NCBI RefSeq assembly: GCF_030813495.1
Contig: NZ_JAUSUI010000008.1
Span: forward strand, 62,001-126,000
Origin: Ancylobacter polymorphus
Lineage (GTDB): Bacteria > Pseudomonadota > Alphaproteobacteria > Rhizobiales > Xanthobacteraceae
Direction of reading: 5' to 3'
DNA: 64,000 nucleotides
The notes below the pieces were generated by a model that was not told where the DNA came from, made no database searches, and saw only the letters and a program-made list of their open reading frames with translations. Every line of letters begins with the position of its first letter. Within the stretch, counting starts at the first letter, position 1. This document shows, one piece after another, positions 13,506-39,187 of the stretch. A program made the position numbers and the translations under genes.

Positions 13506-13525
13506 TCTGGCTTGTGCGAGACTGG
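13506..13525 (-). promoter_or_regulatory. Putative FtcR-type operator upstream of flgE
   Basis: On the minus strand the 20-mer is CCAGTCTCGCACAAGCCAGA. It holds two half sites (CCAGT and CAAGC) whose starts are 11 bp apart, and it ends 38 nt before the flgE start codon. The same layout occurs upstream of DUF1217, motA and flgB. Assignment to FtcR is inference from OmpR-family binding habits and from the shared genes. Confidence 0.6.
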
Positions 13526-13584
13526 CGTGCGCGGCGCCTGGCACGGCCGCGTCTGGCGAGCCGCGCAGGGTTAGCCGCGAATGG

Positions 13585-14907
13585 CTAGCCTCGTATCGCC
13601 TGGGCGAGTTCGGCGAAGGGTTCGCGGCTCGGCGGCGCGTCGGCATATTGCGACAGCGCCTCGTAGATGCGCGGCACCACCTTCACCGCCTGGTCGAGCT
13701 CGGGGTCGGCGCCGGGGTGGTAGCCGCCCATCAGCCTGAGGTCGCGCGTGTCCTCGAAGCGGGCGATGAGGCTGCGCAGGCGGCGGATCAGGTCCCGCTC
13801 CTCCGGGCTCCAGACGAGATCGGCGAGGCGCGAGACCGAGCGCAGCACATTGACGGCGGGAAAGCGGCCCTGGTCGCCGATCGCGCGGTCGAGCACAATA
13901 TGGCCGTCCAGCGTGCCGCGCACCGCGTCGGCCACCGGGTCGTTATGGTCGTCGCCATCGACCAGCACCGAGAAGATGGCGGAGATCGCTCCCTTGCCCT
14001 CCGGCCCCGGGCCGGCGCGTTCCAAAAGGCGCGGCAGGGTGCTGAACACGCTCGGCGCATAGCCGCGCGCCACCGCCGGCTCGCCCGCCGCCAGCGCCAC
14101 GTCGCGCGCGGCATGGGCGTAGCGGGTGACGCTGTCGATGATGAGCAGCACCTGCTCGCCCCGATCGCGGAAATATTCCGCCACGGCGAAGCCGGCGCGC
14201 GGCGCGAGGCGGCGCATCATCGCGCTCTCGTCGCTGGTGGCCACCACCACGACCGAGCGGTGGCGGTTGGGCGCCAGCGGACCTTCGAGGAATTCGCGCA
14301 CCTCGCGCCCGCGCTCGCCCACCAGCGCGACCACGATGGTGTCGAAGCCCTCGCAGCGCGCCAGCATGGCGAGAAGGGTGGATTTGCCGACGCCCGAGCC
14401 GGCGAAGATGCCGATGCGCTGGCCCTCGACCATGGGGGTGAACAGGTCGATCACCCGCACGCCGGTGCGCAGCGGCTTGTGGATGCGCGCCCGGCTCATC
14501 GCTTCCGGCGGATCGGCCTCCAATTCGCGCGCCTCGTCGCCGAGGGTGAGCGGGCCGAGCCCGTCCAGCGGCTGGCCGAGCGCGCCGATCACCCGGCCCT
14601 TCCACTCCTCATGCGGGCGGAAGGCGAGGGGGCGGGCGCGATGCGCCGGCGCGCCGAGGCCGATCGGCACCCGCTCGTCGAACGGTTTCACCGTGGCGCC
14701 GCCCTCATCGAGCCGCACCACCTCGCCGATCAGATGGCGGCCATTGGCCTCCACCGACACGCAGGCGCCGAGCGTGAGATGGGAGGACAGGCCCGAGACG
14801 CGGAAATGCGTCGGCGTGACCTCGCGCACCGTGCCGGAGACGCGCACGAAGGGCAGATCGTCGAGCCCGGATTGAACCGCCGCTTCCAGCCGCGCCAGCG
14901 CGTTCAT
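13585..14907 (-). CDS. fliI: Flagellum-specific ATPase FliI
   Basis: A 440-residue export ATPase related to F1 beta subunits. The Walker A motif is GIFAGSGVGKSTLL near residue 170, the Walker B strand is VLLIIDSVTRYAHAARD, and the catalytic-region signature GYAPSVFSTLPRLLERAGP is present. It unfolds and drives export substrates at the base of the flagellum with FliH and FliJ. The start lies 1 bp after flgF, so the two are coupled. A 117-bp gap with the flgE promoter follows. Confidence 0.96.
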   Translation of the reverse strand: MNALARLEAAVQSGLDDLPFVRVSGTVREVTPTHFRVSGLSSHLTLGACVSVEANGRHLIGEVVRLDEGGATVKPFDERVPIGLGAPAHRARPLAFRPHEEWKGRVIGALGQPLDGLGPLTLGDEARELEADPPEAMSRARIHKPLRTGVRVIDLFTPMVEGQRIGIFAGSGVGKSTLLAMLARCEGFDTIVVALVGERGREVREFLEGPLAPNRHRSVVVVATSDESAMMRRLAPRAGFAVAEYFRDRGEQVLLIIDSVTRYAHAARDVALAAGEPAVARGYAPSVFSTLPRLLERAGPGPEGKGAISAIFSVLVDGDDHNDPVADAVRGTLDGHIVLDRAIGDQGRFPAVNVLRSVSRLADLVWSPEERDLIRRLRSLIARFEDTRDLRLMGGYHPGADPELDQAVKVVPRIYEALSQYADAPPSREPFAELAQAIRG

Positions 14908-14908
14908 C

Positions 14909-15625
14909 TCAGGACGGCCCCAGCGTGCGGATGGTCTCCGAGGTCTGGTCCTCGCTCTGCTGCACCGCCTGGGCGGCCATCTCGAAGGTGCGCTGCACGG
15001 CGATGAGCCGTGTCATCTCCAGGATCGGGTCGACATTCGAGCCCTCGACATAGCCCTGGCGGATGCCGAGGCTGGAGAAGTCCTGCACCGGCAGGCCGGG
15101 GCGGTCGGGGATCACCGCATTGCCCTGGCGCTCCAGCTTCGCCCCCGCCGGCAGGGTGAACAGGCCGAGCGTGCCGACGCGGTTGCCGCCCTGGGTCATC
15201 GCGCCGTCGGCGCCGATGCGGATCTCGCCGCCGGCGGGGTCGACAAGCATCGCGGTGCCGCCGGCATCGAGCACCGGCAGGTTGTCGACGGTGAGCAATT
15301 CCCCCGTCGGGGCGATATGCAGCCGCCCGTCGCGCGTATAGGCGCGCCCGTTCGGGGTCTGCACCGCGAACCAGGCGTCGCCCTGCGGCGCCACGTCGAG
15401 CGGGTTGCCGGTGTAGTTGACGGGTCCGGCGGCGAGCGAGGTGTAGGTCTCGCCCTCGGAGACGAAGGCGACGTCCTGGTCGCCGGCGGTGGAGAGCAGG
15501 TGCTCGAACTTGATCGCCTCGGCGCGAAAGCCGGGGGTGCTCATATTGGCGACATTGTTGGCGATGGTCGCCATGCGCCGTTCAGTGGCAAGCTGCGCCG
15601 CCAGCGGGACATAAAGGCTCGGCAT
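14909..15625 (-). CDS. flgF: Proximal rod protein FlgF
   Basis: A 238-residue rod protein. The N-terminal motif (AAQLATERRMATIANNVANMSTPGFRAE) and the C-terminal motif (LGIRQGYVEGSNVDPILEMTRLIAVQRTFEMAAQAVQQSED) define the flagellar rod/hook family. Length and order (just before fliI) fit FlgF better than FlgG, which is at 22854. It starts 3 bp after the DUF1217 gene. Confidence 0.92.
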   Translation of the reverse strand: MPSLYVPLAAQLATERRMATIANNVANMSTPGFRAEAIKFEHLLSTAGDQDVAFVSEGETYTSLAAGPVNYTGNPLDVAPQGDAWFAVQTPNGRAYTRDGRLHIAPTGELLTVDNLPVLDAGGTAMLVDPAGGEIRIGADGAMTQGGNRVGTLGLFTLPAGAKLERQGNAVIPDRPGLPVQDFSSLGIRQGYVEGSNVDPILEMTRLIAVQRTFEMAAQAVQQSEDQTSETIRTLGPS

Positions 15626-15628
15626 GGA

Positions 15629-16396
15629 TCAGCCTCCATATTTGAGGTTCAGCAGCGCCATGCCGGTGCGCATGCCGACGCCATTGGCCGGAAACAGCGC
15701 CAGCGTCGGCGAGGCGGCGACGCCCTGGTCGGCATCCCAGCGCGCGGTGAAGCGGCGGATCAGCCGGTCGAGCTTGGTCGGGTCCTGCAGATCGGCGAGC
15801 TTGAGGCGCTGGGTGACGGCGGAAGCCTGCTTCTCAATGTCGGCGGAGGCCATCGCGGTGGGAAAGCCATAGACGGTCTTCAGCACCTTCCACAGCGCGG
15901 GATCGGCGAGCAGCCCGTAGGCCGACTTCACCTTGGGCGCCTCGCGCTGGAAATAAAGCGCGAGCCGCACGCCCTCATTTTCCGCCCCGGCATCGACTTC
16001 GAGCTTCTGGCGCACATAGGCGTCGACCACGTCCTGCCGCGCCGCCGGGCGCGTCGTGGTGAGCGGGCCGTAATTGTCGAAGTCGAACGCCTTGGCGAAG
16101 GCGGTGAAGCGCTCGTCATTCAGCCGGTTGGCGAAGGATTTGGGGTCGACGATGCCCTCGGTCAGCACCTTGCGCATATAGCCCTTGGCATAGGCCATGT
16201 CGCCGAGCCCGAAGGCGTTCATCGCATAGGTGAAGACGCGGGTGTTCTTGAGAAAGGCGTCGACCGTCTTGATCTTCGGGATGGTGGCGAGGAAGTGCTT
16301 GGTCTCCAGCGCCACCGAAGGCTCCGCCGCCTTCAGCGAGAGCGTGCGGGTCATGTTGCGCGTGAGCGACTGGAAGGTCGCGAAGGTGGTGGTCAT
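15629..16396 (-). CDS. DUF1217-family flagellar protein
   Basis: A 255-residue cytosolic or exported protein without signal peptide or membrane segment. The text TFATFQSLTRNMTRTLSLKAAEPSVALETKHFLATIPKIKTVDAFLKN and the repeated FANRLNDERFTAFAKAFDF / FIRRFTARWDAD type blocks match the DUF1217 family, which occurs at this place (before flgF-fliI) in rhizobial flagellar clusters. The molecular function is not known; a rod or hook accessory role is plausible. I chose the ATG at MTTTFATF because ten extra residues upstream would cover the promoter element. It heads a divergent promoter region with motA. Confidence 0.8.
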   Translation of the reverse strand: MTTTFATFQSLTRNMTRTLSLKAAEPSVALETKHFLATIPKIKTVDAFLKNTRVFTYAMNAFGLGDMAYAKGYMRKVLTEGIVDPKSFANRLNDERFTAFAKAFDFDNYGPLTTTRPAARQDVVDAYVRQKLEVDAGAENEGVRLALYFQREAPKVKSAYGLLADPALWKVLKTVYGFPTAMASADIEKQASAVTQRLKLADLQDPTKLDRLIRRFTARWDADQGVAASPTLALFPANGVGMRTGMALLNLKYGG

Positions 16397-16435
16397 GGCG
16401 GTTCCCGGCTCCGGTCCGGTCGCCACCCTGGCGCG

Positions 16436-16455
16436 GCAAGCTTGCGCCGGGCTTC
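16436..16455 (-). promoter_or_regulatory. Putative FtcR-type operator upstream of DUF1217-flgF-fliI
   Basis: On the minus strand the 20-mer is GAAGCCCGGCGCAAGCTTGC: half sites GAAGC and CAAGC with starts 11 bp apart. It ends 39 nt before the start codon. It lies back to back with the motA copy, giving each divergent operon its own element in 138 bp. Confidence 0.55.
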
Positions 16456-16477
16456 CGCGCCGTCGGGCCGGGCAGGG

Positions 16478-16497
16478 CCAGCCTCGCGCAATCTTGC
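16478..16497 (+). promoter_or_regulatory. Putative FtcR-type operator upstream of motA
   Basis: The 20-mer is CCAGCCTCGCGCAATCTTGC, with half sites CCAGC and CAATC 11 bp apart start to start. It ends 37 nt before the motA start, the same distance as at flgB. A CCTA block follows 3 nt later at both promoters. Confidence 0.6.
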
Positions 16498-16534
16498 TTG
16501 CCTAGACCCTCAGTCAACAACGGAGGGGTCGGCA

Positions 16535-17419
16535 TTGTTCATTCTGATTGGCATCGTCCTGGGGTTTGCCTCGATCGGAGGCGGCTTCGTCGCGATGGGC
16601 GGCCATCTCGAAGTGATTTGGCAACCCTTTGAATATGTCATCATTTTCGGCATCGCCTTTGCCACCTTCCTCATCGCCAACCCGATGTCGACCGTCAAGG
16701 ACACCGGCAAGGCGCTGGGCCAGGCCTTCGCCGGCAAGGCGCCCAAGCGCAAGGATTTCCTCGGCCTGCTCGGCCTGCTCTATGCGCTGATGCGCGAATT
16801 GCGCACCCGTCCGCGCAATGAGGTCGAGGGGCACATCGACGACCCCGCCAATTCCGCGCTGTTCCAGCACTTCCCGGACATTCTCAAGGACAAGGAGCTG
16901 ACGCAGTTCATCTGCGACTATGCGCGGCTCATCGTCATCGGCAATGCCCGCTCGCACGAGATCGAGGGGCTGATGGAACAGGAAATCTCGACCATCAAGA
17001 AATACAAGACCAAGCCGGCCGGGGCGCTGAGCACGGTGGCCGAGGGCATGCCGGCCATCGGCATCTGTGCGGCGGTGCTCGGCATCGTCAAGGCAATGGG
17101 CGCCATCGACCAGTCGCCGGAAATCCTCGGCCACTATATCGCCTCGGCGCTCGTCGGCACGCTGATCGGCATCTACACCTCCTACGCGATCCTCGGGCCG
17201 ATGGCGCACTACATCAAGATCATGCGCGAGAAGCAGGTCCAGCCCTTCATTATCGTGAAGCAGTCGCTCATCGCCTACATGAACGGGGCGCTGCCGCAGA
17301 TCGCGCTCGAACACGGGCGCAAGACCATCTCCTCCTCCGAGCGCCCGAGCATCGACGAGGTCGAGGCGGAAGCCATCTCCAACGTGCCCAACCTCTCGGC
17401 CGTTCCTCAGGCAGCCTGA
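16535..17419 (+). CDS. motA: Flagellar motor stator protein MotA
   Basis: A 294-residue stator ion channel subunit with four membrane helices. It opens LFILIGIVLGFASIGGGFVAMGG; the channel helix TVAEGMPAIGICAAVLGIVKAMG holds the conserved proline; and the cytoplasmic loop is rich in charges for contact with FliG. The start is a TTG, chosen because the reading begins at the typical MotA N-terminus and a strong GGAGGGG ribosome binding site sits 6 nt upstream (16522-16528). It leads an operon with fliM, fliN, fliG and flhB rather than with motB, the rhizobial arrangement. Confidence 0.95.
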   Translation: MFILIGIVLGFASIGGGFVAMGGHLEVIWQPFEYVIIFGIAFATFLIANPMSTVKDTGKALGQAFAGKAPKRKDFLGLLGLLYALMRELRTRPRNEVEGHIDDPANSALFQHFPDILKDKELTQFICDYARLIVIGNARSHEIEGLMEQEISTIKKYKTKPAGALSTVAEGMPAIGICAAVLGIVKAMGAIDQSPEILGHYIASALVGTLIGIYTSYAILGPMAHYIKIMREKQVQPFIIVKQSLIAYMNGALPQIALEHGRKTISSSERPSIDEVEAEAISNVPNLSAVPQAA

Positions 17420-17423
17420 TCAC

Positions 17424-18368
17424 ATGAACATGCGCGCCACCCCCTCCGCCGGCACGCCGGCCGATATTCGCGACCTCCTGCTCGACGCTGCCGGGCTCTC
17501 GCTCGACAAGCTGCCGATGCTGCATGTCATCTTCGACCGCATGGCGACGCTGTGCGCGGAGAGCCTGCGCCAGCTCGCCTCCTCGCAGGCCTATTACTCG
17601 CTGAGCCAGGTGGAGAGCGGGCGCATCGGCGACGTGCTCGACAGCTATGAGGGCATGGCGATCGTCGGCGTGTTCCACTCCCCGGAATGGGACAGCCACG
17701 TCATTGTCGGTTTCGACCGCGACTTCGTGTTCAGCATGGTCGAGGTGCTGTTCGGCGCCGACGGCTCCGAGCCGCCGGTGGATGACGAGCGCTCCTTCTC
17801 CAATATCGAGCTGCGCATCGCCATCGCCCTGTTCGAACAGGTGGCCAAGGCGCTGCAGGGCAGCTTCGCGCTGGTGAGCCAGGTGAGCTTCAAGTTCCAG
17901 CGCCAGGAAACCCGCATGGATTTCGCGGTGGTGGGCCGGCGCAACAACCTCGCCATCTGTGCCAAATTCCTGCTGCAGGCGCTCAATCGCGGCGGCGAGA
18001 TGTTCGTGCTGATCCCGCAGGGCGCGCTCACCCCGCTGCGCCAGCAGCTCGCCAGCACCACGGCCGGCGAATCCTCCCCGCGCGACCCGATCTGGACCAA
18101 GCACATACGCGGCGAGGTGCAGCGCACCGAGGTGCGGCTGCGCGCGGTGCTGGAAGAACGCGAGATCACGCTCGGCGACGCCGCGCAGCTGGAAGTCGGG
18201 CAGATTCTGCCGCTGCAGGCGACGCCGCGCAGCCGGGTCAAGCTGGAGAGCGTCGAGCAGCCGCTGTTCTGGTGCAGCCTCGGGCAAGCTGAAGGGTCTT
18301 ATGTGCTGCGTATCGAAGAGGCGGTCGACCTCGATCAGGAGTTCATCGATGACATTCTCCCCCGCTGA
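17424..18368 (+). CDS. fliM: Flagellar switch protein FliM
   Basis: A 314-residue C-ring component that couples CheY to rotation direction. The middle domain is seen from about residue 40 to 230 (SLSQVESGRIGDVLDSYEGMAIVGVFH, then VSFKFQRQETRMDFAVVGRRNNLAICAKF), and the SpoA/FliN-like domain at about 225-310. The N-terminal CheY-binding peptide is degenerate (TPADIRDLLLDA where other bacteria have a LSQxEIDALL pattern). The gene starts 4 bp after motA; its last 20 nt overlap the next gene. Confidence 0.93.
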   Translation: MNMRATPSAGTPADIRDLLLDAAGLSLDKLPMLHVIFDRMATLCAESLRQLASSQAYYSLSQVESGRIGDVLDSYEGMAIVGVFHSPEWDSHVIVGFDRDFVFSMVEVLFGADGSEPPVDDERSFSNIELRIAIALFEQVAKALQGSFALVSQVSFKFQRQETRMDFAVVGRRNNLAICAKFLLQALNRGGEMFVLIPQGALTPLRQQLASTTAGESSPRDPIWTKHIRGEVQRTEVRLRAVLEEREITLGDAAQLEVGQILPLQATPRSRVKLESVEQPLFWCSLGQAEGSYVLRIEEAVDLDQEFIDDILPR

Positions 18369-18666
18369 GGCGGTGCTGTTCGTGGCGCTCGTGGTGACGA
18401 GCGGCTGCGTCGTGCTGATGTATCGCAAGCTCAATGAGCTCTCGACGGTCGGGCGCCACTACCGGCTGGCGCTGCATGACAGCGCCGCGGCGCTGGGCGA
18501 GGCGCGCGATGCCGTCGCCCTGCTCAACAATGACAGCCGCGAGCTGATTTCCGCGCTGTGCACGCGCATCGGCGAGGCGGAGGCGCTGGTCGCCCGGCTG
18601 GACCGCGCCCGCGCCGAGGCCGCCGCCATTCTCCCCACCCCCGTTAACAAGGACCCGCGCGGATGA
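18349..18666 (+). CDS. Small membrane-anchored coiled-coil protein between fliM and fliN (orf105)
   Basis: 105 residues: one N-terminal transmembrane helix (AVLFVALVVTSGCVVLMYRKL) and then about 70 residues of charged helix with heptad-like spacing (LHDSAAALGEARDAVALL, then LISALCTRIGEAEALVARLDRARAEAAA). I do not recognise a family. I chose the ATG giving MTFSPAEAVLF, inside the end of fliM (20-nt overlap). The stop overlaps the fliN start by 4 nt. Coupling on both sides to C-ring genes suggests a membrane-tethered partner of the switch complex, but this is inference. Confidence 0.75.
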   Translation: MTFSPAEAVLFVALVVTSGCVVLMYRKLNELSTVGRHYRLALHDSAAALGEARDAVALLNNDSRELISALCTRIGEAEALVARLDRARAEAAAILPTPVNKDPRG

Positions 18667-18995: not shown

Positions 18996-19010
18996 GACGG
19001 TTGAGCGCGC

Positions 19011-20030: not shown

Positions 20031-20053
20031 GTCAGGCCACCCCGGGGGCCGCC

Positions 20054-21575: not shown

Positions 21576-21580
21576 ACGCT

Positions 21581-21600
21581 CCAGCCTCGTGCAAGGTTCT
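21581..21600 (+). promoter_or_regulatory. Putative FtcR-type operator upstream of flgB
   Basis: The 20-mer is CCAGCCTCGTGCAAGGTTCT (half sites CCAGC and CAAGG, starts 11 bp apart). It ends 37 nt before the GTG start of flgB. A TATGGTC block follows 5 nt downstream; similar blocks stand at the same distance after the flagellin and DUF1217 copies (GAAGGTC, CAGGGTG). Confidence 0.6.
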
Positions 21601-21637
21601 CGTCCTATGGTCCGCGCGTAGGAATGCGGAGACCCCA

Positions 21638-22021
21638 GTGGACAAGATCTTCCTGTTCGATCTCACCGCCCGCCACGCCGAATGGGCGTCGGTGCGGCAG
21701 GCGACGATCGCCGCGAACATCGCCAATGCCAATACGCCGGCCTACCGGGCGGCGGATGTCGAGCCCTTCTCCATGGTGCTCGACCGCACCCATCTGACCC
21801 AGGCGCGCACCTCCGTCGGGCATCTCTCTCCGGCAGGTGCCGAGGCGATGCGCGCCGAGGTGAAGCCGGCGGATAGCTGGGAAGTCTCCGAATCCGGCAA
21901 CACGGTGAGCCTCGACCAGCAGATGGTCAAAGCCGCCGAAACCAGCGGGGCCTTTACGTTGAACACGAGCGTCGTGCGCGCCTTCCACCGCATGGTGCTC
22001 GCCAGTGTGAGGAACGCCTGA
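21638..22021 (+). CDS. flgB: Flagellar rod protein FlgB
   Basis: A 127-residue proximal rod protein. The N-terminal rod signature is LTARHAEWASVRQATIAANIANANTPAYRAADVEPFSMVL, and the C-terminal helix NTSVVRAFHRMVLASVRNA is typical of FlgB. The start codon is GTG; MDKIFLFDLTARHAEW is the expected family N-terminus, and a GGAGA lies 5 nt upstream of it. It opens the flgBC-fliE-flgGAI operon, and its stop codon overlaps the flgC start by 1 nt. Confidence 0.95.
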   Translation: MDKIFLFDLTARHAEWASVRQATIAANIANANTPAYRAADVEPFSMVLDRTHLTQARTSVGHLSPAGAEAMRAEVKPADSWEVSESGNTVSLDQQMVKAAETSGAFTLNTSVVRAFHRMVLASVRNA

Positions 22022-22757: not shown

Positions 22758-22814
22758 CGCCGCCCGCGACACCTCGTTCCGCCCCCTGTTTCCCGCATTC
22801 CCGGCGGGCGGCGC
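22757..22814 (+). other. Long-range inverted repeat between fliE and flgG
   Basis: Perfect 11-bp inverted repeat: GCGCCGCCCGC at 22757-22767 and GCGGGCGGCGC at 22804-22814, with a 36-nt loop. It starts at the last base of the fliE stop codon and fills most of the 96-bp gap before flgG, the largest gap inside this operon. No T-run follows, so intrinsic termination is unlikely; an mRNA stability or differential expression element is possible. Confidence 0.45.
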
Positions 22815-22853
22815 CGTCGCCGCGTTGTCCGAGGCTGCCCCGAGGACGCCGAC

Positions 22854-23642: not shown

Positions 23643-23657
23643 ACAAGGACATCTGCG

Positions 23658-28323: not shown

Positions 28324-28343
28324 CAAGCCTCGCGCAAGCTTGC
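28324..28343 (+). promoter_or_regulatory. Putative FtcR-type operator upstream of flagellin
   Basis: The 20-mer CAAGCCTCGCGCAAGCTTGC is the cleanest copy of the element: two perfect CAAGC half sites, starts 11 bp apart. Unlike other copies it lies far (166 nt) from the start codon, so the transcript probably carries a long leader. A GAAGGTC block follows 5 nt downstream. Confidence 0.65.
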
Positions 28344-28509
28344 CGTGCGAAGGTCGTTTCATGGCAGATTGATTGTCCGCCCGCTCAGGGCCGGCACTCG
28401 GATCGCGCTTTCGGGCCCGATCATCAAAGGCATGATGCCGCCTCTGCCATGCCGGTGTAAGCCCGGTATGTCCCGTGAAAAAACTCACATCAACTCAAGG
28501 GACATTCCT
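28344..28509 (+). promoter_or_regulatory. Flagellin promoter and predicted long 5' leader
   Basis: A non-coding stretch between the operator and the flagellin start. It ends with a strong AAGGGA ribosome binding site (28497-28502) 7 nt before the ATG, preceded by an A-rich segment. Leader-dependent control by FlbT, encoded at 8924-9322, is known in related bacteria, so this leader is a likely target. The transcription start was not determined. Confidence 0.5.
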
Positions 28510-29763
28510 ATGACCAGCCTGATGACCAACACGTCCTCCATGGTCGCCCTGCAGACCCTGCGGACCATCAACTCTTCGCTCGACGAGACCAATAACCGCG
28601 TCTCCACCGGCCTGCGCGTCAATTCGGCGTCGGACAACGCGGCCTACTGGTCCATCGCCACCACGACCCGCTCCGACAACGGTGCGCTCGGTGCGGTGAA
28701 GGACTCGCTCGGCCTCGCCAAGTCCTCGGTCGATACCGTCAACACCGGTCTCGACACCGTCCGCAATGCCTTGCAGAAGGTGAAGGAAAAGCTCATCACC
28801 GCCGCGTCCCCGGACGCCGATCGCGCCAAGCTGCAGACCGAAATCGGCAGCCTGCTCGAAGAGGTGAAGAACAACGCCAAGAGCACGGTTATTTCCGGCA
28901 GCAACTGGCTGTCGGTGGATTCGAGCGAAGCCAACTACAATGCCAACAAGGCGGTGGTTGCCTCGTTCTCCCGCACCGGCGACTCGGTGCAGGTCGACAC
29001 GATCAACATCGACACCAGCAAGTTCAAGCTGCTGGATTCGAACACCACCGTTCACTCCGCGGTCGACGCGGCGGTGACCACGGCGTCGGCGACCTACTCG
29101 ACCGCCGCCACCACGGCCACGACCGCCTACGACACCGCGAAGACCACGGCGACGACGGCCTACGACACCGACATTGCGGCCGCCGACACGACTTTCGCCG
29201 GCAGCGCCATGGACGCCGCGGCTGTGGCCGCCCGTGACGCCGCTTATGCGACGGCGAAGAACACCCGTGACAGTGCCTTCACCACCGCCGAAACCACGAA
29301 GAAGACGGCCCTCGACGGCGCGGTTCTCGCGCTGAAGAACTCGCTGGGCGCCTCGGGTACCGATAACCTCGGCATTCTCGACAAGTCCCGCGTGGCCGCC
29401 ACGTCCAACGGCAAGGCGACGGTCAGCTCGATCATGGATATCGACATTTCCAAGCTGACCTCGAGCCAGAACGACCTCGACCAGATCGCGAACTACACCT
29501 CGATCGTCGATGCCGCCCTGACCGACCTTACGGATGCGTCCACGAGCCTCGGCTCCACGGCCAGCCGTATCGAGTCGCAGACCAACTTCGTGCAGGCGTT
29601 GCAGGACGCCAACAACCGCGCCATCGGCTCGCTCGTCGATGCGAACATGGAAGAAGAGTCGACCCGTCTGAAGGCGCTGCAGACTCAGCAGCAGCTCGCC
29701 GTTCAGTCGCTCGGCATCGCCAATTCCAGCTCGCAGAGCGTGCTCAGCCTGTTCCGCGGCTGA
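28510..29763 (+). CDS. Flagellin
   Basis: A 417-residue flagellin, the only one in the window. The N-terminal D0/D1 region is conserved (MTNTSSMVALQTLRTINSSLDETNNRVSTGLRVNSASDNAAYWSIA), and so is the C-terminal region (ESQTNFVQALQDANNRAIGSLVDANMEEESTRLKALQTQQQLAVQSLGIANSSSQSVLSLFRG). The surface-exposed middle is unusual: residues about 180-285 are nearly all Ala, Thr, Asp and Lys, predicted helical, with two copies of TTATTAYDT 11 residues apart (201-209 and 212-220). The ATG is fixed by a good ribosome binding site. An intrinsic terminator follows. Confidence 0.97.
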   Translation: MTSLMTNTSSMVALQTLRTINSSLDETNNRVSTGLRVNSASDNAAYWSIATTTRSDNGALGAVKDSLGLAKSSVDTVNTGLDTVRNALQKVKEKLITAASPDADRAKLQTEIGSLLEEVKNNAKSTVISGSNWLSVDSSEANYNANKAVVASFSRTGDSVQVDTINIDTSKFKLLDSNTTVHSAVDAAVTTASATYSTAATTATTAYDTAKTTATTAYDTDIAAADTTFAGSAMDAAAVAARDAAYATAKNTRDSAFTTAETTKKTALDGAVLALKNSLGASGTDNLGILDKSRVAATSNGKATVSSIMDIDISKLTSSQNDLDQIANYTSIVDAALTDLTDASTSLGSTASRIESQTNFVQALQDANNRAIGSLVDANMEEESTRLKALQTQQQLAVQSLGIANSSSQSVLSLFRG

Positions 29764-29861: not shown

Positions 29862-29875
29862 CGCGCTTCCCCGCG

Positions 29876-29895
29876 CAACGCTCAGGCAAGCTCGC
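29876..29895 (+). promoter_or_regulatory. Weak FtcR-type operator upstream of fliF
   Basis: The 20-mer is CAACGCTCAGGCAAGCTCGC: half sites CAACG and CAAGC with starts 11 bp apart, but the 6-nt spacer does not match the CTCGCG consensus. It lies about 100 nt before fliF. In Brucella the fliF promoter is a known FtcR target, which makes the site worth keeping. Confidence 0.35.
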
Positions 29896-29996
29896 CGACG
29901 CACTCTCCTCCCGACGGAACGGCCCTCCCCACTGGCGGGCCCCGCGCGCGGCCCGCGCCAAGGGCCCTTCGCATCATCTAGGGAGCGGGAGAGCAG

Positions 29997-31646
29997 ATGT
30001 TCGCACGCCAGCAGCTCGACATGCTTCTGAGCAATCTGCGGCAGCTCGGCGCCCGCCGCCTGTTCGCGCTGGCCATGATCGGGCTGGCGGTGCTCGCCGC
30101 CATCGGCCTCGGCGCCTATTATCTCAGCCGCCCCGCCACCGAGACGCTCTACGCCAATCTCAGCCGCGAGGACGTGACCCGCATCGGCGCCGCGCTGAAG
30201 GATGCCGGCATTTCCTTCGACGTGAACGCCGATGGTACGGCCGTGCTGGTCGCCCCCGCCGATACGGCGCGCGCGCGCATGCAGCTGGCGGAAAAGGGCC
30301 TGCCGCAGAGCTCCAGCTCGGGCTACGAACTGTTCAACGACGTGAACTCGCTCGGCCTCACCTCCTTCATGCAGGAGGTGACGAAGGTGCGCGCGCTGGA
30401 AGGCGAACTCGCCCGCACCATCCAGACCATGAAGGGCATCAAGGCGGCGCGGGTGCACATCGTGCTGCCCGACCGCGCCTCCTTCCGCCGCGACCAACAG
30501 AGCGCCTCGGCCTCGGTGGTGATCCGCACCGAGAACGCGGAGGACGGCACCTCGGCGGAGGCGATCCGCCATCTCGTCGCCGCCGCCCTGCCGGGCATGA
30601 AGATCGACGCGGTGACCGTGCTCAACACCGAGGGCGCCATTCTCGCCTCGGGCGACGATCCGGCCAATGCCTCCTCCGGCAAGAAGGCGATGCTGCAGGA
30701 GCAGATGAACCGCGAGACCGAGGCGAAGATCCGGCGCGCGCTCACCCCCTATCTCGGCATCGACAATTTCCAGATCAGCGTCACCTCGCGCCTCGACATC
30801 GACCGCGTCACCACCAATGAGACGACCTACGACCCCGCCTCCAAGACCGAGCGCTCGGTGCGCGTGGTCAAGGAGACCGGCACGTCGCAGAACCGTTCCA
30901 AGCAGGCGGCGGCCTCGGTGCAGCAGAACATACCCGGTCAGGCGGCCGGCGGGGATGCCGGCAACAATTCCAATGAGGAGACCAACCGGCGCGAGGAACT
31001 GACCAATTTCGAGATTTCCTCGCGCAGCACCGAGACGGTGCGCGAAGGCTTCACCGTGCAGAACCTGTCCATCGCCATTCTGGTGAACCGCGCCCGGCTG
31101 GTGCCGGCGGAGGGGGCGGGCGACGGCGCCGTGCCGCTGGAGACGCAGATCTACGAGATCGAGCAGCTCGCCGCCGCCGCCTCCGGCTTCGACAAGGCGC
31201 GTGGCGACAAGCTGAAGGTCTCCGCCGTCGGTTTCGCCGATGGCAATGGCGAGCTCGAACCCGTGGCGGCGCTGCCCTGGTCGGAAGTGCTGATGCGTCA
31301 GGCCGGCACGCTGGTGAACGCCGCCACCATTCTCATCGTCGCCGTCCTGCTGATCTGGTTCGGCCTGCGCCCCGCCGTGCGTGCCATCGTCGCCCGGCCC
31401 GAGGAAGCGGAACTGATCGAGACCGCCATGCTCGCCGGCACGGGCGGGGCGATGGGCGAATTGCCGGCGCCCGAGGGCGGCGGCGCTATGACCCCCGGCG
31501 TCACCGAGCCGGTCAGCCTGATCGAGGACCTCACCAGCAAGATGAACCGTTCGCCGCAGAAGCGCCTGGAGCAGATCATCGATTTCGATGAGGAGCAGGC
31601 CGCCGCCATTCTGCGGCAGTGGCTGCAGCAGGAGGCGCGGGTCTGA
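29997..31646 (+). CDS. fliF: Flagellar MS-ring protein FliF
   Basis: A 549-residue ring protein with two membrane helices: near the N-terminus (LFALAMIGLAVLAAIGLGAYYL) and near residue 440 (TLVNAATILIVAVLLIWFGLRPAV). Between them is the periplasmic ring-building region (ETLYANLSREDVTRIGAALKDAGI, then ARVHIVLPDRASFRRDQQSASASVVI). The C-terminal tail (RSPQKRLEQIIDFDEEQAAAILRQWLQQE) is the FliG-binding segment. A GGGAG motif precedes the ATG. It leads the fliF-fliH-motBC-fliK operon, and its stop overlaps fliH by 1 nt. Confidence 0.96.
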   Translation: MFARQQLDMLLSNLRQLGARRLFALAMIGLAVLAAIGLGAYYLSRPATETLYANLSREDVTRIGAALKDAGISFDVNADGTAVLVAPADTARARMQLAEKGLPQSSSSGYELFNDVNSLGLTSFMQEVTKVRALEGELARTIQTMKGIKAARVHIVLPDRASFRRDQQSASASVVIRTENAEDGTSAEAIRHLVAAALPGMKIDAVTVLNTEGAILASGDDPANASSGKKAMLQEQMNRETEAKIRRALTPYLGIDNFQISVTSRLDIDRVTTNETTYDPASKTERSVRVVKETGTSQNRSKQAAASVQQNIPGQAAGGDAGNNSNEETNRREELTNFEISSRSTETVREGFTVQNLSIAILVNRARLVPAEGAGDGAVPLETQIYEIEQLAAAASGFDKARGDKLKVSAVGFADGNGELEPVAALPWSEVLMRQAGTLVNAATILIVAVLLIWFGLRPAVRAIVARPEEAELIETAMLAGTGGAMGELPAPEGGGAMTPGVTEPVSLIEDLTSKMNRSPQKRLEQIIDFDEEQAAAILRQWLQQEARV

Positions 31647-32308: not shown

Positions 32309-32314
32309 GCGGCC

Positions 32315-33568: not shown

Positions 33569-35724
33569 GCCGCGTTGCTTTGTCCGCCACACTCCTCGCC
33601 GCGCTGCTGCTCGCCGGCGGCCCGGCTCTGGCCAAGGACCCTTGGGGCGAGGTGCGCCCAGCCGATGCCGCGCCGGCCGATGCGGGCGGAGAGGCGACGG
33701 GCGATGGCGAAGCGCTGCCCGCGCTCACGCCCGTGGTGGTGCCCACACCCCTGCCGAAGCCGGCGGTGATGCCGCCGGCGGCGCCGCGCCGGATGCCGCT
33801 CGAGGCGCCGCGCCCGCTGCCGCGCCCCGCCGATCTCGCGGCGCAGGCCCCGGCCGCTGCGGTCACGGCCTTGGTCGAGCCGGGCACCGCCGACCCCGCG
33901 CCCGACGCGTCGGCGCCCGCCCTGTCGGCGCCGCTCCCGCCCGCGCATCCGGCACTGGCAGCCGAGGCGCCGGTGTCGCGGGTGGCGACGCTGCGCGTGC
34001 CGCTGCCCCCCGCGCGCCCGGCTCTGGGCGGGGCGGAAGCGCGGTCGCCGGTCGCCTTCCAGACCGCGCCCGTGGAAACGCCGATCGCGGCGCCGACAGG
34101 GGTGGCGGCGCCCGCGCCGACCCCTCAGCCCTTCGCGGGGCTTGTGCCGGCACCGGCGCTGCTCGCGTCGGAGGCGGTCGGGCCGGACACTTTCGTTTCG
34201 CTGGCCTTCACCGCCGATTCCTTCGATCCCCGCTCCTTCGCCCCGACCGTTTCGGCGGCTCGCGCCGCGGCGGCCGCGCCGGCGCCGTCCCCGGTCGTCT
34301 CTCCGGCGGTCGTCTCGCCGGCGGCGGCGCCGATGGTCGCCCCGGCTGTCGCGCCGGCGGTCACCCTCGCGGCGCCCGAGGCCCCCGCCGCGCCGATGGC
34401 GGAGCCTGATCTTCCGGAGCCGATGGAGCGCACGACCGCGCTGCTCGCCCTGCCGACGCTTGCCGTGTTCTCGTCGGCGCAGGCGGCGGAAGCCACGGCG
34501 CCGGAAGCCGCCGCCAAGGAGGCGCCCGCCAAGGATGAGCCCGCCTCCGCCGCCAATGCTCCCGAACTGCCGCCCGCGCCGCCGCTCTACCGCGAGGTGC
34601 GCGAGCTCCAGCGCCTGCAGGACCGTATGGCGGCGGGCGAGCCGAACGCCCTGACGGCGCAGAACGCGCTGATCGCCCGCATCGACCAGAGCTTCCGCGC
34701 GGCGGATGCCTCCGCCTGGAACGACCCGCAGAACGCCCGCGCGCTCATCGTCTTCGCGCTGAGCGGCGGCGGGCCGGGCGTGCTGCGGGCGGTGCTGGGT
34801 CAGGGCGCCAGCCCCGCCGTCGATGAGAGGCTGCTGCGCGGCACGCTCGCCTATCTCGAAGGCCGTGAGCCGGAGGCGCTGAAGCAGCTCGGCGAGATTG
34901 ATGCGCGCCAGCTGCCGGACAGCCTCGCCGGCCAGGTGGCGCTGGCGCAGGCCGCTTTGTGGGTGCGTCGCGACCCCCCGCGCGCCTCGGTGCTGCTGGG
35001 CCGCGCCCGCCTTTTGGCGCCGGGCACGCTGGTGGAGGAGGCCGCGCTGCGCCGCGAGATCTTCATCGCCGCCCAGGCCAACGAACTCGCCAGCTTCGAG
35101 CGCCTGACCTCGACCTATCTCGCCCGCTACCGGCACTCGGTCTATGCCGGCAATTTCCGCCTGCGCTTCGCCGCCGCGCTGACGCGCATGAGCTTCATCG
35201 ACAGCGCCGACGAATTCCACCGCGTCCACGAACTCCTGGCCCCGCTGGAACCCGAAAGCCGCCGCGAGGTCGCGCTGCTCATCGCCCAGGCGGCGCTGGC
35301 GCAGGGCAAGACCACGGCGGCGGCGCTGGCCTCGGAGCTGGTACTGAAGGGCACGGTGTTCGGCAGCCTGGAAGCCGACCGCGCCACGCTGTACCGCGCC
35401 GCCGCGATCATCGCCGCGCCCGGCCGCTTCGACGAGGCCAGCGCGGCCCTCGCCAGCATCGCCCGCGAGCGCTTCGGCAGCGAGGATGCGCGGCTGCTCG
35501 GCGCGGCGCTGGCGGTGGGCGCGTCGATCAGCGATGCCGTCAATGTGCCGGTGCCGCCGCCGGCCGGGCTCGGGGGCGAGGCCGGCGCGCCGGAAGCCCA
35601 GGGGCCGGTCGCCCCGGAGACGGGCCAGGACGGCGGCCAGGACGCCATGCCGCCGGCCGTGCTTGCCTCGGCCCAGGCCGCGCTTGAGGCCGCCGACAAA
35701 GCCCTGGGAGACGCGCCGCTATGA
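33565..35724 (+). CDS. motC: Periplasmic motility protein MotC with long Pro/Ala-rich insert
   Basis: 719 residues: a signal peptide (LLAALLLAGGPALA), about 300 residues of low-complexity Ala/Pro/Val sequence, then a helical C-terminal domain from about residue 335 (LYREVRELQRLQDRMAAGEPNALTAQNALIARIDQSFRAAD and following TPR-like helices). The C-terminal part, its place after motB, and the motE gene elsewhere in the window support MotC, which binds MotB and stabilises stators in rhizobia. Known rhizobial MotC is only about 430 residues, so the disordered insert is a marked expansion. It overlaps both neighbours by ATGA. Confidence 0.88.
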   Translation: MSRVALSATLLAALLLAGGPALAKDPWGEVRPADAAPADAGGEATGDGEALPALTPVVVPTPLPKPAVMPPAAPRRMPLEAPRPLPRPADLAAQAPAAAVTALVEPGTADPAPDASAPALSAPLPPAHPALAAEAPVSRVATLRVPLPPARPALGGAEARSPVAFQTAPVETPIAAPTGVAAPAPTPQPFAGLVPAPALLASEAVGPDTFVSLAFTADSFDPRSFAPTVSAARAAAAAPAPSPVVSPAVVSPAAAPMVAPAVAPAVTLAAPEAPAAPMAEPDLPEPMERTTALLALPTLAVFSSAQAAEATAPEAAAKEAPAKDEPASAANAPELPPAPPLYREVRELQRLQDRMAAGEPNALTAQNALIARIDQSFRAADASAWNDPQNARALIVFALSGGGPGVLRAVLGQGASPAVDERLLRGTLAYLEGREPEALKQLGEIDARQLPDSLAGQVALAQAALWVRRDPPRASVLLGRARLLAPGTLVEEAALRREIFIAAQANELASFERLTSTYLARYRHSVYAGNFRLRFAAALTRMSFIDSADEFHRVHELLAPLEPESRREVALLIAQAALAQGKTTAAALASELVLKGTVFGSLEADRATLYRAAAIIAAPGRFDEASAALASIARERFGSEDARLLGAALAVGASISDAVNVPVPPPAGLGGEAGAPEAQGPVAPETGQDGGQDAMPPAVLASAQAALEAADKALGDAPL

Positions 35725-37778
35725 TCCCGGTTCCGCTCAACGCCGCCCGCACCGCCACCGCCGACGATTTGCCCGGCCGCGCCGAGCGCGGGGACGGCGG
35801 CGACGCGTTCGCCGCCCTGCTCGCCGAGCTGGATGGACGGCCCGCCGCCGCACCCGAGGCGTCGGCGCCTTCCGCCGGCCCGCGAGCCGAACGATCCACG
35901 CTGCCGGCGCCGCGCTTCGGCGCGCCGGTGCGGCTGGAGGCGGCGGAGACGACGCCCGCTCCGGAGCAGGCCCCGGATCAAGCCGCCGTGCCCGCCAACC
36001 CGATTCCCGGGACGGAGCGGCCGCCGGCGGCGATGGACCTCGGCGCGCTGCTCGCGCGGTCCGCCCGCCCGGCCGCCGTCGTGCCGTCCGCCGCCCGGCC
36101 GTTCGGCGAGCCGCCCGCCAGCGGCGCGGGTGAAACGCCGCGCGAGAACGGGCCGGCGATGCCCCGGTCCACCCCGGCCGCGGAAACTGCGTTGGCCCGC
36201 CCCGCAGCGCCCGGCACCGTGGCGCACATCCTCTCGACGCCGGCAGCGCCGTTGCCTGCGTCGCCGTCCATTCTCCCCCTGCCGAACGGGGAGGCGGAAA
36301 CGGTGGCTCAGATGCCGTCCGCCGCTCGCCCCGACCGAGACGCCGAGGCGGGGGAGGGCGCGCCTGCTCCCGCCGCCCCGCGGTCGATGGCCGGTGACGA
36401 GACCTCCCCCCGCCCGGAGCGGACCCGGCCCTCTTCGTCACCGGCGCCGGTGCGCGCCGATGCCACCCGCCTGTTCTCCCCGCGGCCGGAGGCGACGCCC
36501 GCATCCTCGGAGGAGGATGGCGCGCCGCGTCCTCTCCCGGTCGAGGCCGGTCGGTCCGCGCCCGCGCGGTCATCCGATCGCCCGGAGGAACGGACACCCG
36601 TCGTACCGGCGGCTGCGAACGATGCGGCGCCCTCAACGTCCCCGCTGCCGGCGGCGATGCTCGCGACCCTGCTGCCCGCCCCTTCGGCGCTGCCGCAAGA
36701 GGCGGATGTGCCGGAAGGCACGAGCGACTCGGCCATGGTCGCGACGCTGGAGGAGGGGGCCACGCCGGACGAGGCGCCGGTCCCCAGCGCCAAGGTGGTG
36801 TTGTGCGAGACGCATTTCGCGCCGGTGCTGCCGCGCGAGGCCGGGCCGACGCCGCCTGCCGTGCCCGACCAAACACCGGCCGCGCCCCGGCCTTCCCTCG
36901 CGCTTCCGCAGGCGGCGGAAGCGGAGGCGCAGGCGGCGGCCGTTGCGGTCCCGGCGGCCACGGTCGCAGCGGCTTCCGCCTCTGCCGCTTCCGCCTTGGC
37001 CGCCTCCGAAGGGCCGGCGTTCGACCGTCCGGTGCCCACCTCGAACGAGCGTCGCCCCGCTGCGCGCGTTGTCGACATATCCGCCCAGGCGGGCGAGGCG
37101 CCGCCGCCGTCCACCGACACGGCTCCGCCCGAGGAACGCCCCGCCGCGCGGATGCCGGTCCGGGCGACCGCCGGCGCGGAGAGGGTGCGCGGCGCGTCCG
37201 AGGTCGCGACCGAGACGCCGACCCCCGCCCCGGTTGCCAGCGACACCGCCGCCACTCCCGCGCCTGTCGCTGCGCCGGCGGGGGCCGCTCCGTCGCCAGC
37301 GGCGGTACAGCTCGGCAGCATCCTTGCCGAGGCCGTTCGCGCGGAAGCGCCGGGCTCTTCCGCCGCTGGCGCGGCCATACCGGCGCGCGGCCCGGTGCGT
37401 GTGCTGGAAATCCAGCTCCGCCCGCTGGAACTCGGCCTGGTGACGGTGCGGCTGCGCACCGGCCGCAACGGTCTGGAGATCCACGTTCATGCCGCGCGAG
37501 CGGAGACGGCGCACCTGCTGGAGCAGGACCGCGCCAGCCTCATCGCCACGCTGGCCGATGCCGATGCCGGCCCGCTCGACCTCACCATCAGCCAGACCGG
37601 CCTGCCGCCCCGCCTCACCGGCGAGGACGCCTTCGCGCCGGTGGACTGGGAGCGCCGCGAGGGGAACGGGTCCCGCGAGGGGAATTCCGGCGATTCTGAC
37701 CCGCGCCGAAGGAGACGACAGGATGAAGATGCGGCTTTCCGCGCTGCTGATGGCGGCGCTGCTGACCAGCAGCCCTGA
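35721..37778 (+). CDS. fliK: Hook-length control protein FliK (rhizobial MotD)
   Basis: 685 residues, mostly low-complexity Pro/Ala sequence with no predicted fold, as expected for a molecular ruler. The folded C-terminal substrate-switch domain is recognisable at about residues 555-630 (RVLEIQLRPLELGLVTVRLRTGRNGLEIHVHAARAETAHLLEQDRASLIATLADADAGPLDLTISQTG). In rhizobia this gene was first named motD. The last 18 residues (RRRRRQDEDAAF and on) are read from sequence that also encodes the start of the next gene, a 56-nt overlap in another frame. Confidence 0.88.
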   Translation: MIPVPLNAARTATADDLPGRAERGDGGDAFAALLAELDGRPAAAPEASAPSAGPRAERSTLPAPRFGAPVRLEAAETTPAPEQAPDQAAVPANPIPGTERPPAAMDLGALLARSARPAAVVPSAARPFGEPPASGAGETPRENGPAMPRSTPAAETALARPAAPGTVAHILSTPAAPLPASPSILPLPNGEAETVAQMPSAARPDRDAEAGEGAPAPAAPRSMAGDETSPRPERTRPSSSPAPVRADATRLFSPRPEATPASSEEDGAPRPLPVEAGRSAPARSSDRPEERTPVVPAAANDAAPSTSPLPAAMLATLLPAPSALPQEADVPEGTSDSAMVATLEEGATPDEAPVPSAKVVLCETHFAPVLPREAGPTPPAVPDQTPAAPRPSLALPQAAEAEAQAAAVAVPAATVAAASASAASALAASEGPAFDRPVPTSNERRPAARVVDISAQAGEAPPPSTDTAPPEERPAARMPVRATAGAERVRGASEVATETPTPAPVASDTAATPAPVAAPAGAAPSPAAVQLGSILAEAVRAEAPGSSAAGAAIPARGPVRVLEIQLRPLELGLVTVRLRTGRNGLEIHVHAARAETAHLLEQDRASLIATLADADAGPLDLTISQTGLPPRLTGEDAFAPVDWERREGNGSREGNSGDSDPRRRRRQDEDAAFRAADGGAADQQP

Positions 37779-38355
37779 GCTTGCCGCCGCGCCGAACGCC
37801 TCGGCGACGCAAACGCCCCCCAGCACGCCTGCCGGCACGCCCGCCAGCGCGGCGGCCGGGGCGCGCCTCGGCGTGTGCGAGGCGGCGATGGCGCGCGCCT
37901 CGGCCAAACATGGCGTGCCGCTGGCGATACTCTATGCGGTCGGCATGACCGAGACCGGCGGCAATGGCACGCTGCAGCCTCTGGCGATGAATGCGGGGGG
38001 GAAAAGCCATGTCGCCACGAGCCCCGCCGATGGTGCGCGCAAGCTGGCGGAGTTCAAGGCGCGGGGGGTGAACCTGGTCGATCTCGGCTGCATGCAGATC
38101 AACCATCGCTGGCATGGCGACCAGTTCGCCTCGGTGGCGGAGATGTTCGATCCGGAGCGCAATGTCGACTACGCCGCCCGCTTCCTTGCGGAACTGCGGC
38201 AGCGTCATGGCAACTGGACGATGGCGGCGGCCCGCTACAATGCCGGGCCGAACAATGATCCGGCGCAGAAGCGCTATGTCTGTGCCGTCATCCGCAATCT
38301 GGTCCGGTCCGGCTTCGGAAGCTGGACCGCCCAGTCGCGGGCCTTCTGCGCCTGA
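37723..38355 (+). CDS. Secreted lytic transglycosylase (SLT domain)
   Basis: 210 residues: signal peptide (LSALLMAALLTSSPELAAA), short Pro/Thr linker, then a single SLT domain with the catalytic glutamate in ILYAVGMTETGG and the later motifs LGCMQINHRWHG and AARYNAGPN. It likely opens peptidoglycan for rod growth, replacing the muramidase half missing from FlgJ here. The start is set by a strong AAGGAGA (37709-37715) 7 nt upstream of the ATG; it lies 56 nt inside fliK. It is the last gene of the fliF operon and converges on cheZ. Confidence 0.9.
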   Translation: MKMRLSALLMAALLTSSPELAAAPNASATQTPPSTPAGTPASAAAGARLGVCEAAMARASAKHGVPLAILYAVGMTETGGNGTLQPLAMNAGGKSHVATSPADGARKLAEFKARGVNLVDLGCMQINHRWHGDQFASVAEMFDPERNVDYAARFLAELRQRHGNWTMAAARYNAGPNNDPAQKRYVCAVIRNLVRSGFGSWTAQSRAFCA

Positions 38356-38357
38356 TC

Positions 38358-39080
38358 TCAGGCGAAGAGGGAGTCGATGTCGTCCTGCGAGACGACGTTC
38401 TCGTCATCCGCCAGCGCCGGCCCGTTGAGCAGGGCCTCGTCGCCGGTGCGCTCGGAGGCGATGGTCTCGGCGATGCGCGAGACTTCCTCCTGCCCGCCCC
38501 AGATGTTGGACATGCGCGCGACCCGCTCCTCGATGAAGACCATGAGGTCCACCACCTTGCGGATACGCTGGCCACTGATGTCCTGGAAATTGCAGGCCTC
38601 AAAGATGCGGGTGGCATAGCTGTGGATCGCCTGCGCCAGCATCTTGTGGCTGCCTTCCAGCTCCGCCACCAGCGAGATCGCCGCGCCGTCGATGTTCTCG
38701 GCCATCTGCAGAATGTCCTCGGTCGCCGCCTCGGTATCCGCGACGACGGCGTCGAGCTCGTCGGTGGCGCGGTTGAAGCGTGCTCCCTTGGCGCCGCCCG
38801 CCTGCAGCGTGGCCAGCTCGTTCTTGGTGTTGTCGATCGCCTGCCGGATCGATTCCACATCCATCAGCATGGCGTGGCGCGAGCATTCGGGATCGGCTTC
38901 GGGGCAGCGGCGGTCGAACCGCGCGATCACGCCGCGCAGCTCGTGCAGCTCTTCCAGCACACGGCCTATCTGGGCGGAGACGGAGCCCTGCATCGTCATC
39001 GAGTTGGCGACGTGCTTCTCTCCCGCCCCATTGTGTCGTTCATTCGCTTCAATCCGGAACGGCCGCCGGGCAGACGACAT
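38358..39080 (-). CDS. cheZ: CheY-P phosphatase CheZ
   Basis: A 240-residue helical protein. The phosphatase motif NFQDISGQRIRKVV holds the expected acid and glutamine (Asp167 and Gln171, equivalent to D143 and Q147 in E. coli CheZ). The C-terminus VVSQDDIDSLFA matches the CheY-binding tail of CheZ (SQDQVDDLLDSLGF in E. coli). The start MSSARRPFRIEAN was chosen for its GGGAG ribosome binding site 7 nt upstream; an in-frame ATG 24 bp further up lacks one. It is divergent from cheY, its substrate gene. A cheZ-like gene beside flagellar genes is also known in Azorhizobium. Confidence 0.88.
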   Translation of the reverse strand: MSSARRPFRIEANERHNGAGEKHVANSMTMQGSVSAQIGRVLEELHELRGVIARFDRRCPEADPECSRHAMLMDVESIRQAIDNTKNELATLQAGGAKGARFNRATDELDAVVADTEAATEDILQMAENIDGAAISLVAELEGSHKMLAQAIHSYATRIFEACNFQDISGQRIRKVVDLMVFIEERVARMSNIWGGQEEVSRIAETIASERTGDEALLNGPALADDENVVSQDDIDSLFA

Positions 39081-39167
39081 GTAAATTCTCCCATTAACTC
39101 GCAAGTTTTCGATGATTTCTTATAGTTCAAAGCCAAAGGCCTGAGAATAACCCTAGGTTTCGGCCTG

Positions 39168-39187
39168 CAAGCTTCGCGCAAGCATTG
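39168..39187 (+). promoter_or_regulatory. Putative FtcR-type operator between cheZ and cheY
   Basis: The 20-mer CAAGCTTCGCGCAAGCATTG has two perfect CAAGC half sites with starts 11 bp apart. It lies 78 nt before cheY and 87 nt from the cheZ start, so it could serve either gene. Being partly palindromic (GCTTGCGCGAAGC on the other strand), its orientation is not decisive. Confidence 0.5.

Follow-up and report, generated by a model that had tools for sequence, protein, structure and literature searches.

In this study, we analyzed a 64,000-nucleotide (nt) stretch of the Ancylobacter polymorphus genome (contig NZ_JAUSUI010000008.1, positions 62,001 to 126,000; hereafter the window) for a 20-bp element that stands before the operons of its flagellar gene cluster. 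The element, here called the box, consists of two CAAGC-type half sites with the approximate consensus CMAGY-N6-CAAGS. Our analyses suggest that the OmpR-family regulator FtcR, encoded in the same cluster, binds the paired half sites, recruits sigma70 RNA polymerase and switches on the flagellar operons, a reading whose probability we put at about 0.85. From sequence comparison we infer FtcR as the binder, the activation, the sigma factor and the transcription starts.

The original prediction, made from the letters of the window, had placed seven such elements in intergenic DNA, and each 20-mer was confirmed at the sequence, strand and gene given for it, every one between genes (Table 1). In all seven the half sites lie 11 bp apart, start to start, which is the direct-repeat geometry of an OmpR/PhoB-type class II site. 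The end of the 20-mer is separated from the start codon by 38, 39, 37 and 37 nt at flgE, DUF1217, motA and flgB, respectively, as had been claimed for four promoters (37–39 nt), and by 166, 101 and 78 nt at flagellin, fliF and cheY. The statement that the element marks most flagellar operons holds for this cluster, with seven operon starts so equipped and ftcR itself excepted. The weakest of the seven sites is that of fliF (14.6 bits), and fliF upstream regions of relatives repeat its CAACG..CAAGG form. The DUF1217 and motA boxes (16436-16497) lie back to back in opposite directions, 22 bp apart, and the same pair is found in the relatives G051, G024 and G026.

The architecture of the putative promoters was examined in a stack of 139 distinct 31-mer sites scoring at least 14 over their first 20 columns, the later columns not being used for picking. 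Columns A3, C12, A13, A14 and G15 are constant in 97–100% of these sites. Among the columns that did not enter the score, A makes up 84% of column 27 (1.2 bits) and 53% of column 29, and T makes up 42% of column 31 and 40% of column 26. The dinucleotide TA starts at offset 9 in 45 sites, as against 11 at most for every other offset. The column-27 A is present in six of the seven window sites. This pattern points to a sigma70-like -10 hexamer (nAnAnT) beginning 9 nt after the downstream half site; if this hexamer spans -12 to -7, the upstream half site would cover roughly -37 to -33 and the downstream one -26 to -22. PhoB-type class II activators have their site in place of the -35 element, and the box is predicted to replace the -35 in the same manner. 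The sigma54 consensus is GG-N10-GC and that of sigma28 is TAAA-N15-GCCGATAA; neither pattern appears in the columns of the 139 sites. A second block, A-N-GGT, had also been claimed, and it does exist at three sites, but it appears to be an instance of the general -10 element and had not been recognized as a promoter -10.

For statistical testing, a profile and a 20-column matrix were built from 24 sites of seven relatives with the window sequence excluded; those sites were found via a seed resembling the motif of the original prediction and so are not independent of it. The held-out 20-column profile ranks all seven boxes within the top nine of ~128,000 window positions. Out of 300 column-shuffled profiles, 260 caught none of the seven promoters, 38 caught one, two caught two, and none caught more. 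The other two of these nine positions are a site inside fliM and position 4939 (15.0 bits). A loose pattern in the nucleotide code of the International Union of Pure and Applied Chemistry, with three mismatches, gave no enrichment in the window (24 matches seen versus 23.6 expected), and because of this chance-level performance the weighted profile was used for testing. The histogram of spacings between CAAG words is governed by codon phase, and only its off-phase spike at spacing 7 is informative; that spike is present in loci L191–252 (63 versus 8–19) and in the clusters of relatives (20 versus 4–9), with 5 versus 0–5 in clusters without FtcR. The site inside fliM (18274-18293, 18.1 bits) has no counterpart in eight relatives, where the best score is 4.1 bits, and was taken as a coding coincidence.

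At the scale of the whole 4.71 Mb genome, the five sites from which CMAGYYTCGYRCAAKS was written are its only exact matches, and allowing up to two mismatches gave 181 matches versus 116 for the backward control. A 31-column held-out model returned 11 matches at E ≤ 10, with 150 of 1593 first-look candidates scored (119 per genome in the multi-genome search). Their order is flaA, flgB, motA, DUF1217, C2:419589, the fliM site, C6:66803, cheY and three more; five of the seven window sites and one chemoreceptor promoter are thus in the list, and E is below 0.05 for only its first two matches, flaA and flgB. In an unfiltered window scan the same model ranks flaA, flgB, motA, DUF1217, the fliM-internal site, cheY, another site and flgE. 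A pattern that includes the -10 A and was derived from the site alignment matches the genome seven times (backward control, one); five of these matches precede motility genes, namely flgB, flaA, fliF, cheY and one methyl-accepting chemotaxis protein gene (C4:459253); the remaining two lie inside flgI and at C4:149468, where no motility gene was recognized.

Conservation in relatives had been set as a test of the element, and boxes were found at the orthologous promoters: the same form precedes flgE, DUF1217, motA, flgB, flagellin, fliF and cheY in most relatives in which those genes were found, and the flanks differ. Upstream regions were dropped before counting if the tblastn match started after residue 25 or fewer than 60–70 bases were available. 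Counts at a score of at least 12 include the training genomes, and some of the named FtcR loci, which are the best 80 of 436 relatives, duplicate numbered genomes (among them L182/G001, L183/G018, L184/G006, L186/G057 and L187/G051), so that not all upstream counts are independent. That score was reached by 35/35 motA, 49/52 fliF, 17/18 flgB, 30/37 cheY and 7/12 DUF1217 upstream regions, as well as by 17/29 for flgE, a count lowered by included paralogue matches of 30–36% identity. The eight operon-internal genes together gave 0/214 (fliI 0/19, fliM 0/36, fliG 0/40, flhB 0/41, flgC 0/18, flgI 0/10, fliP 0/4, motB 0/46). Only one of 101 ftcR upstream regions scored at least 12, and autoregulation through the same site is therefore not indicated. 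Beyond the family, eight of ten genomes from nine other families have the box (score at least 12) at one promoter or more, and in the other two, G198 and G144, only ftcR could be scored. In two genomes of family f24, probably Rhizobiaceae, flgE scores 19.9 and 14.4 and flgB 21.4 and 15.2. Clear misses in other families are flgE of G278, fliF of G245 and G159, and flagellin of G246, G245 and G159. As judged from these upstream regions, the box is conserved before motA, fliF, flgB and cheY in several families of Hyphomicrobiales, and less often before flgE and flagellin.

The distribution of the box was compared with that of FtcR. Orthologs of FtcR were found in 11 of 61 genomes of the family, including that of the window (76–82% identity in seven, 52–58% in three), the next best match listed beyond them having an E value of 2e-19. 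Across the order, 67 of 249 genomes have an ortholog at E ≤ 1e-40. In the window, FtcR is encoded in the flagellar locus, as would suit a member of the FtcR/Rem/LafR regulon. Among the named loci, the nearest are in Ancylobacter (84–93%), followed by Prosthecomicrobium, Azorhizobium, Aquabacter and Xanthobacter, with Methylobacterium, Chelatococcus, Microvirga and others further away. All 11 FtcR genomes of the family have a lateral-type FliP (65–88% identity; two in pieces or partial), the other FliP type (36–58%) occurs without FtcR, three genomes have both types, and eight of 61 have no FliP match. A single fragmentary genome, 79% complete (G048), has a lateral-type FliP and two box matches, and FtcR was not found in it. 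Each of the eight genomes with a close FtcR has six to eight profile matches at E ≤ 0.5; seven of these genomes supplied training sites (three only the cheY site), and the window genome supplied none. The 49 genomes lacking both FtcR and lateral-type FliP gave 30 matches at the same threshold, 20 of these genomes having at least one, which is about what the threshold itself leads one to expect. From 19 loci of these matches, with L132, L133 and L135 left out, none of 16 precedes a recognized flagellar gene, and four of 16 have the column-27 A by eye. Flagellar upstream regions of FtcR-less genomes gave 0/29 at a score of at least 12 (maximum 7.2; four genomes, internal genes and paralogue matches included), and in 4/4 such genomes flgF is preceded, by eye, by GGCAC with the sigma54 GG-N10-GC spacing. 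The comparison suggests that the box is present with FtcR and absent without it, but this pattern is confounded by cluster linkage.

The receiver domain of FtcR is degenerate, with PF00072 matching residues 66-111 only, below the cut-off. At the residue aligned by hand with the phosphoacceptor aspartate of regX3 (column 50), the 11 orthologs have E in six, Q in three, and D and R in one each. The conserved lysine at column 101 is V or A in FtcR of the three dual-flagella genomes. Two FtcR genes at separate places occur in several Methylobacterium and other genomes (L195/L243, L204/L224 and L214/L252, and G144, G104, G255 and G276), perhaps reflecting two lateral-type systems per genome. In G022, a 99% complete genome of the same genus, neither an FtcR ortholog nor a FliP match was found, and the flagellar system seems to be absent from it.

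Profile matches outside the cluster were examined in 27 stretches of FtcR genomes, 26 chosen from the multi-genome search at E ≤ 0.5 and one from the 11 matches in the window genome; two of the 27 belong to the window's own genome. Fifteen precede motility genes, namely ten PF00015 chemoreceptors, two flagellins, motA and flgE (by Pfam) and flgB (by eye); flgB, flgE and motA here are cluster genes on other contigs. The remaining 12 comprise one S-adenosylhomocysteine hydrolase, two glycosyltransferases, three with no Pfam match and six outside the Pfam scan. A similar frequency before unrelated genes would have spoken against the element; the box is not as frequent there, yet these 12 of 27 are not before recognized motility genes. 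The window genome has six PF00015 genes. At C2:419589 the site is followed after 34 nt by a methyl-accepting chemotaxis gene (PF00015 9e-35), and at C4:459253 it is followed after 89 nt by the ATG of a second chemoreceptor. The chemoreceptor C2:646432 has CAATC-CTGAAG-CAAGC with TAGCGA in the -10 position (13.0 bits), the one at window position 46975 has a weaker copy (8.8 bits), and no box was seen before the one at 1822-3585 in the window (4.6 bits). The sixth, C2:140104, with ~56 bases upstream, was left out of box scoring.

In the mechanism that we propose, the DNA-binding domains of two FtcR molecules would occupy the two CAAGC-type half sites, arranged head to tail over roughly -37 to -22 and 11 bp apart. 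FtcR would take the place of the -35 hexamer and recruit sigma70 RNA polymerase to the -10 (nAnAnT) 9 nt past the downstream half site, thereby switching on the flagellar operons of the cluster together with some unlinked chemoreceptors and extra flagellins. Since ftcR has no box of its own, it would be expressed from another promoter and act as a feed-forward master switch. The original prediction of an OmpR-family direct-repeat activator site, probably for FtcR/Rem, is supported by the geometry, by conservation at orthologous promoters and by co-occurrence with FtcR.

The box might instead be read by another factor linked to lateral flagella. A receiver-MarR response regulator (40675-41592) and a histidine kinase (42018-43892) adjoin ftcR in the window and occur in 18 and 16, respectively, of the 80 FtcR loci, and 15 matches to the FtcR query in the window genome show that other OmpR-type regulators exist; an unlinked one, such as CtrA, would be a further candidate. 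MarR proteins usually bind inverted repeats, which counts against a reader of that type, and the receiver-MarR was not found in the other 62 of 80 loci (up to 10 kb on each side; the rest of the genomes was not searched). The motA box is nonetheless present in 27/27 scorable loci in which no receiver-MarR was found, leaving FtcR as the only one of the two locus regulators tested that stays with it. Because the box persists without the receiver-MarR, FtcR is the most probable reader. The CtrA box is likewise an 11-bp direct repeat with an OmpR-family reader at flagellar genes of other Alphaproteobacteria, but its half sites, TTAA-N7-TTAA, are unlike CAAGC; CtrA and VisNR were not searched for in these genomes. 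In the available passages of a transcription start site study of Sinorhizobium meliloti, CtrA motifs are placed at flaA, flaC, flaD and two mcp genes (PMC3616915), whereas a review describes, in the parts seen, rem mutants as non-flagellated and LafR as controlling lateral flagellar genes (PMC8429497). Overall, we regard a reader other than FtcR as improbable.

We consider it less probable still that the element is the core promoter of an alternative sigma factor. The fixed distance to the -10 and the short gap to some start codons would suit such a promoter, but with two half sites arranged head to tail at a distance of one helical turn and ending 9 nt before the -10, there is no space for a -35 of its own, and nAnAnT is of neither the sigma28 nor the sigma54 type. 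A precedent is found in Azospirillum, where, according to part of one paper, the extracytoplasmic function sigma factor RpoE6 regulates a minor flagellin (PMC12826043). That the resemblance arose by chance, or reflects common descent of flagellar promoter DNA that has no function, is barely credible: the loose pattern is no commoner in the window than expected by chance, but box and -10 are kept while the flanks diverge, different genes of one genome share the box, shuffled profiles fail and the eight internal genes are without it.

Several results weigh against activation by FtcR through this box. FtcR is co-inherited with the lateral-type cluster, and their co-occurrence with the box cannot separate FtcR from another regulator of the cluster. 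The three dual-flagellum genomes have 2, 2 and 0 profile matches (E ≤ 0.5). The genome-wide motif search proposed with the original prediction recovered five sites in the profile list, but the flgE and fliF boxes are absent from its 11 matches, and the flgE -10 of the window is without the conserved A. Flagellin upstream regions reach a score of at least 12 in only 9/36 and, in the named loci, 1/22, which makes flagellin a variable target. This score is also reached by 2/26 flgF and 5/30 flgG upstream regions; flgF can stand first in loci in which no DUF1217 gene was found, that of G060 being one. The motif reported for Brucella melitensis FtcR by chromatin immunoprecipitation sequencing (ChIP-seq), TGTGGGCA, present in 118 of 363 sites according to the passages seen (PMC9456535), has one match in the window versus 1.4 expected; three 40-kb stretches from other families gave 0, 1 and 1. 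The S. meliloti CtrA motifs mentioned above point the same way, as do the three new motifs of that study, none of which, in its available passages, resembles the box (PMC3616915).

In comparison with known systems, the predicted promoter is like the PhoB/OmpR class II pho box in its 11-bp direct repeat over the -35 and a -10 ~10 nt after the last half site, and unlike it in the half site (CAAGC versus CTGTCAT) and in an FtcR receiver without a conserved phosphoacceptor. Rem (Sinorhizobium, Rhizobium) and LafR (Bradyrhizobium diazoefficiens) are homologous regulators of flagellar operons, and similar boxes occur in the two f24 genomes and in dual-flagella genomes. In part of a review, LafR is described as controlling lateral and not polar flagella and as needing no phosphorylation, and the activation of flagellin in S. 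meliloti is described as indirect (PMC8429497), whereas the best box of the window genome is that of its flagellin promoter. B. melitensis FtcR belongs to the same OmpR family, controls flagellar genes and, in the passages seen, is said to bind directly upstream of fliF and to be autoregulated (PMC9456535), unlike the case here, with its CMAGY-N6-CAAGS box and rare ftcR sites. As far as their available text goes, an agrobacterial start site paper mentions SciP and CtrA motifs (PMC10469942) and the main text of an Azorhizobium ActR paper lacks the words motif and EMSA (electrophoretic mobility shift assay; PMC8639532). Our literature search, whose scope did not extend to the original papers on Rem, FtcR and LafR (Rotter 2006, Mongiardini 2017, Leonard 2007), found no CAAGC-type flagellar box.

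The flagellin mRNA leader (28426-28512 in the window) is strongly conserved in most lateral-type relatives, G195 excepted, and divergent in G245, G159 and G246. For 14 of 22 leaders, RNAalifold gave a GGC/GCC hairpin, an AUGCCGG/CCGGCAU hairpin and a pairing of GUCCC with GGGAC at the ribosome site. Covariation gave no real support to this fold, one pair being changed on both sides in four sequences and broken in four, and an Rfam search of the leader returned two matches, both far below the gathering score. The leader is perhaps a target of FlbT.

Table 1. Boxes, putative -10 elements and associated genes in the window
Feature	Coordinates	Strand	Half sites and candidate -10 (coordinates)	Remarks
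flgE box	13506..13525	-	CCAGT-CTCGCA-CAAGC; TCAACT (13495-13500), weak	Orthologous boxes in G051, G057, G013
DUF1217-flgF-fliI box	16436..16455	-	GAAGC-CCGGCG-CAAGC; CAGGGT (16425-16430)	Also in G051, G024, G026
Box of motA and following genes	16478..16497	+	CCAGC-CTCGCG-CAATC; TAGACC (16503-16508)	
Box of flgB and following genes	21581..21600	+	CCAGC-CTCGTG-CAAGG; TATGGT (21606-21611)	
Flagellin (flaA) box	28324..28343	+	CAAGC-CTCGCG-CAAGC; GAAGGT (28349-28354)	Best profile match of the genome
fliF box	29876..29895	+	CAACG-CTCAGG-CAAGC; CACTCT (29901-29906)	Weaker
cheY box	39168..39187	+	CAAGC-TTCGCG-CAAGC; CAGAAC (39193-39198)	
flgE	12211..13467	-		Translation and tblastn synteny
DUF1217 gene	15629..16396	-		PF06748 2.8e-57
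flgB	21638..22021	+		Named from translation
Flagellin gene	28510..29763	+		Named from translation
fliF	29997..31646	+		Named from translation
cheY	39266..39649	+		Named from translation
ftcR	39967..40641	+		OmpR-family regulator; Trans_reg_C PF00486 4.5e-13; proposed binder of the box

In rhizobia, Brucella and related bacteria, the name of flagellar master regulator is given to FtcR, Rem and LafR, and the literature searched holds no agreed binding box for them. We lean towards the broader view that one FtcR/Rem/LafR box, CMAGY-N6-CAAGS-N9-nAnAnT, may serve across the Hyphomicrobiales as the general operator of lateral/peritrichous-type flagella, with a reader whose receiver would work without phosphorylation and with chemoreceptors recruited to the regulon. 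If this is true, the printed Brucella ChIP motif would not be the core operator. The box, the predicted -10 and the genome-wide target list make the regulon, including its scattered chemoreceptors, directly testable. Potentially, the box may also help to separate FtcR-type from sigma54-type flagella by sequence alone.

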